Shown here in pieces: positions 10,458 through 52,586 of a DNA stretch of 64,000 nt. A program made the translations under genes and the position numbers. A model generated the notes under the pieces. It worked only from the letters and a program-made list of their open reading frames with translations, had not been told where the DNA came from and searched no databases. How positions within the stretch are numbered: the stretch's first letter is position 1; each line of letters opens with the position of its first letter. Source of the stretch: Nitrosopumilus adriaticus (GTDB taxonomy: Archaea; Thermoproteota; Nitrososphaeria; Nitrososphaerales; Nitrosopumilaceae); contig NZ_CP011070.1 of assembly GCF_000956175.1 (NCBI RefSeq), positions 558,001-622,000 of the forward strand, read 5' to 3'.

Positions 10458-10946
10458 TTGCAAGTAGTAACTGATGATAGATTAGCACTTTTTGCTGAAA
10501 TGGAAGAAAAGTATGAGCAGAAAGATACCGATTATTTTGTATCTCTTTTAGATCATCCTGATTATGTTGTTAGAACCAGAGTAGCTTGTATTTTGGTTGA
10601 TTTTGGTGGTGAGGATAAGGTGCAATATATTGCCAAAGTTTTAAAAAATGATGAAAATGAATTGGTTAGACATGAAGCTGCATTTGCATTAGGTCAGATG
10701 AGCTATTCTAGTGCCATTCCCCCATTAACTGATGCAACTCTCAATGATCCAAGCATGTTTGTGCGACATGAAGCTGCAATTGCTTTGGGTGTTGTTGGAA
10801 ATAAAGAGGCTAAAGAGGCACTTCAAAAAGCATTAAACGATCCGGATCCTCCAGTTGTAGAGTCAGCCGTAGTCGCCCTATCAAATATTGAATTTATGGA
10901 AAAGTTAAGTAAGAACGAAAAGTTTGCAAAGTTAACAGGTGGATGA
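10458..10946 (+). CDS. HEAT-repeat protein resembling half of deoxyhypusine hydroxylase
   Basis: The 162-residue protein is built of about four HEAT-like repeats. Two carry His-Glu motifs: [12 protein letters not shown] (H72-E73) and [12 protein letters not shown] (H104-E105), 32 residues apart. Eukaryotic deoxyhypusine hydroxylase has two such pairs with a spacing of 33, flanked by very similar residues, and uses them to hold a di-iron centre. A dimer of this protein could rebuild the four-motif site; that is inference. General PBS-lyase HEAT proteins also contain similar repeats, so a scaffold role is the plain alternative. TTG start. The next gene starts one base after its stop. Confidence 0.7.
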
Positions 10947-10947
10947 G

Positions 10948-12027
10948 ATGAATTTTGCATATGGAGTAATAGCAATTGTTGGTGTTTTAGCTGCAATCAC
11001 ATTGGGATTCATTGCAATGAATCCGGATGATATTATTCAACCAAGAATAGTTTCAATTGAAGAAAAACCAACTGTTTGTACAATGGAATATGCTCCTGTA
11101 TGTGGTATTGATGGCGAGACTTATGGTAACATGTGTATGTTAAACGCTGCTGATGTAAAATTGGTCCATGAAGGCGAGTGTAGTGTTGATGATCCTAAAG
11201 TAAAACCAAGAATTCAACTTGAAGAAATAGTAGAACCAGAACCAATGGTAGAACCAACACCTGAACCAACTATGACTGCTCCAATGACATCTGGAATTCA
11301 TACAGTAAACATTGCTGAAGGTTCTGGAGCACCTGGATGTGAAGAAACAAACGAATGCTATTTGCCTTATTCTATTATAATTTCTGTAGGTGACACTGTA
11401 ATTTGGAACAACCCTGACAGTGCTGCTCATACTGTAACAAGTGGAACTATTTCTGATGGACATGATGGAATGTTTGATTCTAGTTTGTTTATGTCTGGTT
11501 CAACTTTTGAATTTACTTTTGATGAATCAGGAACATATGATTATTTCTGCATGGTTCATCCATGGATGACTGGCAAAGTTGTTGTTAATGAAATTGAAGA
11601 GATGATGGTAATTGAAGAACCTGAACCTGAACCAATGGTAGAACCAGAAACAATGACAGAACCTGAACCAATGGTAGAACCAGAAACAATGACAGAACCT
11701 GAACCAATGGTAGAACCAGAAACAATGTCAATGGCTATAGTCTCACTTCCTGCAGGATCTGCAATTCCAGGATGTGAAGAAACAAACGAATGTTACTTGC
11801 CTTACGAGATTACTGTATCTGTAGGTCAAACAGTTACTTGGAGTAATGATGATTCAGCTGCACATACTGTAACTAGTGGAACTGTTGATGCTGGAGTAAC
11901 AGGAGTATTTGACTCTGGATTATTTATGTCAGGTTCAACCTTTGAGCATACATTTGAGAAAGCAGGAACATATGATTATTTCTGCATGGTTCATCCTTGG
12001 ATGACTGGAATTGTTACAGTTAACTAA
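10948..12027 (+). CDS. membrane-anchored Kazal plus double plastocyanin-like copper protein
   Basis: The 359-residue protein has an N-terminal membrane segment (about residues 4-24) and a Kazal-type motif with four Cys (C44, C52, C63, C78; [15 protein letters not shown]). Two type 1 copper cupredoxin domains follow, joined by a Pro/Glu linker. Copper ligands are H161, C201, H204, M207 in the first domain and H306, C346, H349, M352 in the second. Each copper domain is preceded by an identical two-Cys segment [12 protein letters not shown]. It probably carries electrons outside the membrane; the Kazal domain suggests protease inhibition. The ATG at 10948 is one base after the HEAT stop; a GTG at 10939 would overlap that gene. 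Confidence 0.85.
11623..11730 (+). repeat. three tandem 36-base repeats encoding the inter-domain linker
   Basis: Three near-identical 36-base units encode [12 protein letters not shown] in the linker between the two cupredoxin domains. The third copy differs only at its end. A related, diverged Pro/Glu stretch precedes the first cupredoxin domain. Confidence 0.9.
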
Positions 12028-52022: not shown

Positions 52023-52586
52023 ATGAATTCAGAAATGCTTGATTTAGTTGCTAAAAAATTATTTCTTACAAAAGGAAAAGGCGTACATGAAGATAGATTA
52101 ACCAGTTTTGAATATGCATTAAGGGATGCGGGAATTGCTGGAACTAATCTAGTTCTTATATCTAGTATATTTCCACCTAAAGCAAAATTAATTTCAAGAA
52201 AAGAAGGCCTTAAGAGAATTAGCCCTGGACAGATATTGTTTACAATTTATTCAAAAAATCAGACTAGAGAACCCCATAGAATGTGTGCAGCTTCTGTTGG
52301 TATTGCAATTCCTAAGGATTGTTCTAGATATGGATACCTTTCAGAATACGAATCTTTTGGTCAAAATGAAACTCAAGCCGGTGATTATGCTGAAGATATT
52401 GCAGCACAAATGCTGGCATCTTCATTGGGAATTCCATTTGATGTTGATAAAAACTGGGATGAAAAAAGACAACAGTGGTCTATATCCGGGAAAATTTACA
52501 ATACAAAAAATATTACCCAGTCAACGAAAGGTGATAAAGATGGAAAATGGACTACTGTTTTTGCAGCAGCTGTCCTCTTACTGTAA
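52023..52586 (+). CDS. pdaD: pyruvoyl-dependent arginine decarboxylase
   Basis: Makes agmatine, the start of archaeal polyamine synthesis. The 187-residue proenzyme has the self-cleavage Ser-Ser in LVLISSIFPP (S47-S48) and family blocks SPGQILFTIYSKN and SEYESFGQNETQAGDYAEDIAAQML. Cleavage makes a beta chain and a pyruvoyl-bearing alpha chain. Preceded by a TATA-like AGTATAAATA about 25 bases before the ATG. Confidence 0.93.
   Translation: MNSEMLDLVAKKLFLTKGKGVHEDRLTSFEYALRDAGIAGTNLVLISSIFPPKAKLISRKEGLKRISPGQILFTIYSKNQTREPHRMCAASVGIAIPKDCSRYGYLSEYESFGQNETQAGDYAEDIAAQMLASSLGIPFDVDKNWDEKRQQWSISGKIYNTKNITQSTKGDKDGKWTTVFAAAVLLL

Follow-up and report, generated by a model that had tools for sequence, protein, structure and literature searches.

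Human deoxyhypusine hydroxylase (DOHH; EC 1.14.99.29; PDB 4d4z and 4d50) is the closest described relative of the archaeal protein reported here. It is a HEAT-fold enzyme of 302 amino acids consisting of two halves and a linker, whose residues H56, H89, E90, H207, H240 and E241 anchor a di-iron centre, while E57, E90, E208, E241, G65 and G214 have been assigned to deoxyhypusine binding (PMC9117371). Hypusine occurs in some archaea, though papers from 2012 to 2018 knew of no DOHH orthologue in any archaeon (PMC3306375, PMC5178350, PMC6105217). The aIF5A of S. solfataricus is hypusinated, yet in vitro the deoxyhypusine synthase (DHS) of this species went no further than deoxyhypusine, thus a second enzyme is called for; Haloferax is stated to have deoxyhypusine only (PMC6105217). 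Our search of an open-access collection of papers yielded no later report of an archaeal DOHH. The PBS-lyase HEAT proteins, i.e., CpcE/CpcF, NblB and E. coli YibA, have short HEAT repeats of the same type as the protein described below, and YibA is reported to be without the DOHH active-site residues (PMC3306375).

Gene and conserved residues

The window, by which we mean the whole stretch of 64,000 nucleotides of Nitrosopumilus adriaticus DNA that was analysed, encodes a protein of 162 amino acids that, together with its relatives, is referred to here as family A. The open reading frame and its two His-Glu (HE) pairs, placed 32 residues apart in the preliminary description, were confirmed in the sequence; in human DOHH the spacing is 33 residues, both from H56-E57 to H89-E90 and from H207-E208 to H240-E241. 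The gene and its key residues are located as follows.

10458-10946, plus strand: family A gene for the half-size DOHH-like HEAT protein, with a TTG start codon; relatives have a start codon at the equivalent place
10671-10676, plus strand: first pair, His72-Glu73, counterpart of human H56-E57 and H207-E208 in the alignment to the DOHH halves, unchanged in 168 distinct sequences
10689-10697, plus strand: LGQ motif, Leu78-Gly79-Gln80, with Gly79 and Gln80 invariant and shared with each of the two halves of the human enzyme
10767-10772, plus strand: second pair, His104-Glu105, counterpart of human H89-E90 and H240-E241 in the same alignment, likewise unchanged in 168 distinct sequences

Each HE position of DOHH and the Gly of LGQ thus has a counterpart in family A, and both proteins share the Gly-Gln after the first HE pair and an R-x-R in the preceding repeat. 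The two HE pairs occupy the iron-anchoring positions of one DOHH half (two of two), and they proved as constant among orthologues as the DOHH comparison had led one to look for, being retained in all 167 distinct sequences with those columns filled. In the full alignment of 169 distinct sequences, R39, His72, Glu73, Gly79, Gln80, R103, His104, Glu105 and a few other residues are invariant. Unlike canonical DOHH, which has two fused halves, eight HEAT hairpins and four HE pairs per chain, family A comprises a single half with two pairs and is therefore classed as a half-size variant, which would need a partner subunit for a di-iron site. Most family A members, in contrast to DOHH, end in Thr-Gly-Gly.

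The neighbours of the gene in the window encode a peroxiredoxin, a response regulator and a cupredoxin/Kazal protein, and they are kept beside it in close relatives only. The response-regulator-like gene lies just upstream. Directly downstream, the frame at 10939-12027 (plus strand) starts a few bases from the family A stop codon and, as read from its sequence, combines a Kazal-like segment with two cupredoxin-like repeats. No general operon partner was found, since these neighbours are shared by near relatives only and aIF5A is never adjacent. A defence role was also discarded, PADLOC giving weak HEAT matches for the gene that carry no defence meaning.

Similarity to DOHH and to other HEAT proteins

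Among natural proteins of solved structure, DOHH is the nearest relative of family A by sequence, profile and fold, which upholds the DOHH-like reading of the preliminary description over one as a non-metal HEAT protein. The window protein alone matched DOHH among the solved chains at 3.9e-27. A family A profile (A1) searched against all solved chains reached DOHH at 6.4e-39, the next clearly natural proteins being the proteasome subunit RPN2 (1.8e-11), YibA (1.4e-10) and CpcE (7.8e-7). Artificial alphaRep proteins rank around and above DOHH in this search because they consist of consensus repeats and their score is summed over many copies; the computationally redesigned HEAT protein 6veh scored 2.6e-32. 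The AlphaFold2 monomer of the window protein (pLDDT 92.2, pTM 0.85) was matched by Foldseek to the DOHH-type HEAT superhelix of 4d4z with probability 1.00 and 1.6 Å over 127-129 columns, and no natural protein other than DOHH appeared in the top 39 matches. In the reverse direction, human DOHH (a query with one mismatch to 4d4z in 289 residues) had family A as its best match in all eight archaeal genomes tested, and in the genome of the window family A scored 2.5e-14 vs 6e-4 for the second match.

The window protein spans one half of DOHH, as had been proposed, and resembles both halves equally. The archaeal profile scored 70.0 and 70.1 bits against them. Sequence identity of the window protein to the halves is 34% and 36%, compared with 41% between the halves themselves. 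In a tree of 54 rows the DOHH halves pair together (100/97) beside family A; since the DOHH branches are very long and the root was placed at the midpoint, an ancestor with one half is only suggested.

Pfam assigned the window protein to generic families only, HEAT_2 (8e-51) and more weakly HEAT and HEAT_PBS. The named lyase models in NCBIfam stayed below their curated cut-offs, with 43.5 of 300 bits for NblB as the best, 27.7 of 330 for CpcE and 16.9 of 220 for CpcF. Generic HEAT or PBS-lyase membership was rejected on these weak scores in Pfam, NCBIfam and the solved-chain profile search, and the PBS-lyase proteins differ from family A in this respect despite their similar repeats.

Ammonia oxidisers contain a second HEAT family, family B, encoded in the genome of the window at L002:1318-1815 (G000:C1:852460-852726 region) and elsewhere at L155-L173. 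It is similar to family A in its length of about 170 amino acids, its HEAT_2 match and its two HE pairs, which are present in all 21 members listed; unlike family A, it is without LGQ, has RWDxVW upstream and forms a group of its own, apart from DOHH and family A in the tree. The HE pairs kept without LGQ indicate that the HE-pair HEAT scaffold was reused in ammonia oxidisers. Family B could be a partner subunit of family A or a different HE-HEAT enzyme.

Distribution and association with haem-copper oxidase

A search with a single sequence at 1e-15 across 397 sampled Thermoproteota genomes detected family A in 93, and this number together with the retention of both HE pairs in every sequence places the family far beyond chance. 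Profile A1 added three genomes of the 397, with weak matches (1e-12 to 1e-14) inside larger HEAT proteins. The carriers are nearly all ammonia oxidisers of Nitrososphaeria, the non-ammonia-oxidising members G310 and G381, and families f19 and f34 of one order, which we take to be Caldarchaeia, as well as family f60. A scan of contigs added soil Bathyarchaeota MAGs, Gagatemarchaeum, Nitrosocaldus, Nitrososphaera and Nitrosocosmicus; the soil Bathyarchaeota MAGs have the same family A locus as G333 of f60.

Profile A1 found no match at 1e-12 in f24 of the 397-genome set, an oxidase-rich family that presumably corresponds to Sulfolobaceae; with aIF5A of Sulfolobus being hypusinated, another enzyme would be needed there. 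In the ammonia-oxidiser genus g22 of family f3 (G373 and G441-G451), family A was not matched in 11 of the 12 genomes, of which several are incomplete; it may therefore be dispensable. G448 is the sole genome of this genus with the gene, which lies beside a DHS gene, reflecting either loss in the lineage or a misbinned contig; the latter is suggested by G448 having a contig with the length and the gene pair of the L138 contig (see below) in a genus otherwise without family A. The adjacency on the contig stands in either case.

The family is nearly restricted to genomes with haem-copper oxidase. A scan for COX1 (PF00115) over the same 397 genomes found it in 155, including 92 of the 93 carriers, and family A is absent from 241 of the 242 genomes without COX1. 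The one exception, G211, is a MAG that is 81% complete in about 350 contigs, and its genus-mates G016 and G048 have COX1. Carriers free of AmoA nonetheless possess COX1, and within the class only G384 is without both family A and COX1. The association has a Fisher P of about 1e-46 when genomes are counted singly and of about 0.008 when the lineages are counted as roughly three independent clades.

Putative pathway partners

DHS was present in all 61 family A carriers tested, mostly in two copies. Two diverged DHS homologues are typical of carriers and stand side by side in several genomes; those of the window's genome are at G000:C1:1203350-1204204 and 876589-877482 (L073, L074). The aIF5A of the carriers inspected has a GKHG loop with the modifiable lysine, in G186 once what seems to be an intron is left out. 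Family A and DHS are directly adjacent on two unrelated contigs, whose three DHS proteins were confirmed by Pfam.

L138, Nitrososphaeraceae HEB2_70: family A at 3956-4456 and DHS at 4571-5560, same strand
L040, G128: DHS genes at 1985-2908 and 2891-3925, family A at 4001-4501

DHS lies about 5 kb from family A in G016 and G048. Most genomes have no such linkage, the distances in 21 genomes being mostly as expected at random, and aIF5A was never adjacent to family A in the genomes compared. Because most genomes are unlinked and more than 200 related loci were inspected, DHS linkage counts as supporting evidence only. The preliminary description had also pointed to arginine decarboxylase at 52023-52586 in the window as the start of polyamine supply; the gene is real (Pfam PvlArgDC, 3.7e-57), but it is 41 kb away and provides no evidence for the family A gene.

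Proposed function and alternatives

Good evidence supports both the homology of family A to DOHH and its conservation of half a DOHH-type active site. Our favoured reading, to which we give about an even chance, is that this single-half relative serves as deoxyhypusine hydroxylase in aerobic Nitrososphaeria and their relatives. The absences in f24 and g22, the missing DHS linkage in most genomes, the much smaller oxidase association by clade, and the high scores of 6veh and the artificial HEAT proteins weigh against it. By analogy with DOHH, family A probably acts as a dimeric half-size form that depends on iron and O2, and a dimeric, di-iron, O2-dependent hydroxylase would be the most economical mechanism, with iron, the dimer and O2 use all carried over from the DOHH comparison. 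The iron ligands of each subunit would be two His and one Glu, namely His72, His104 and Glu105, corresponding to human H56/H89/E90, and Glu73 and Gly79 would help to keep the side chain of deoxyhypusine in place. The di-iron site would arise between two subunits arranged like the halves of human DOHH, and it would use O2 to hydroxylate the deoxyhypusine put on aIF5A by DHS. We infer aIF5A to be the likeliest substrate, the chances for and against it being roughly balanced.

The same active-site evidence would suit an oxygenase of the DOHH kind, with one iron or two, that acts on another substrate, be it a polyamine, a small molecule or some other residue of a protein. The unsteady linkage of family A to DHS or aIF5A is consistent with such an enzyme, as is the scaffold reuse within ammonia oxidisers seen in family B, and the absence from Sulfolobus-like genomes at the threshold used separates family A from known archaeal hypusine. 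However, the Gly and Glu positions to which deoxyhypusine binding has been attributed in DOHH (PMC9117371) are invariant in family A too, and DHS stands beside it on two unrelated contigs; we regard another substrate as rather unlikely. The conservation of these substrate-binding residues also weighs against a protein that would hold iron by its HE pairs to sense or carry iron or oxygen and not be an enzyme. Such a protein would show the same conserved residues and would agree with the haem-copper oxidase of nearly all carriers, and the response-regulator-like gene upstream in the window would suit it, but the neighbouring genes are conserved among close relatives only, and this role appears very improbable to us.

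An ordinary HEAT scaffold or a PBS-lyase-type lyase-chaperone with structural HE pairs would agree with the purely generic Pfam matches and with NblB as the best NCBIfam model. Against it, both pairs are kept throughout the 167 sequences, CpcE and YibA score far below DOHH in the profile search, and HE pairs are missing from generic HEAT proteins, L003 and L174 among them; we consider this explanation improbable.

Returning to the hydroxylase reading, family A provides a small, concrete and, on sequence grounds, strong candidate for an archaeal DOHH in culturable archaea and suggests a route by which the two-fold symmetric eukaryotic DOHH could have originated; it would also link the modification of an archaeal translation factor to oxygen. 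In a more far-reaching version, which we put forward tentatively and hold to be possible but somewhat doubtful, family A would be the missing archaeal DOHH and the single-half dimeric form ancestral to the fused two-half eukaryotic enzyme, and aerobic archaea would complete O2-dependent hypusine synthesis with a one-domain enzyme.

An apparent intron in aIF5A

In G186, a Nitrosocaldus-like member of family f2 of the same order, the aIF5A gene is broken by a 32-nucleotide insert in the hypusine loop (L183:1476-1507). Read without the insert, the gene gives SKPGKHGSAK again, and the junction falls within the modifiable lysine's codon. At the RNA level the fold is that of an archaeal bulge-helix-bulge, with a UAU bulge, a 4-bp CUGG/CCAG helix and an AUA bulge, and the insert resembles an intron of the splicing-endonuclease type, here within a protein gene.
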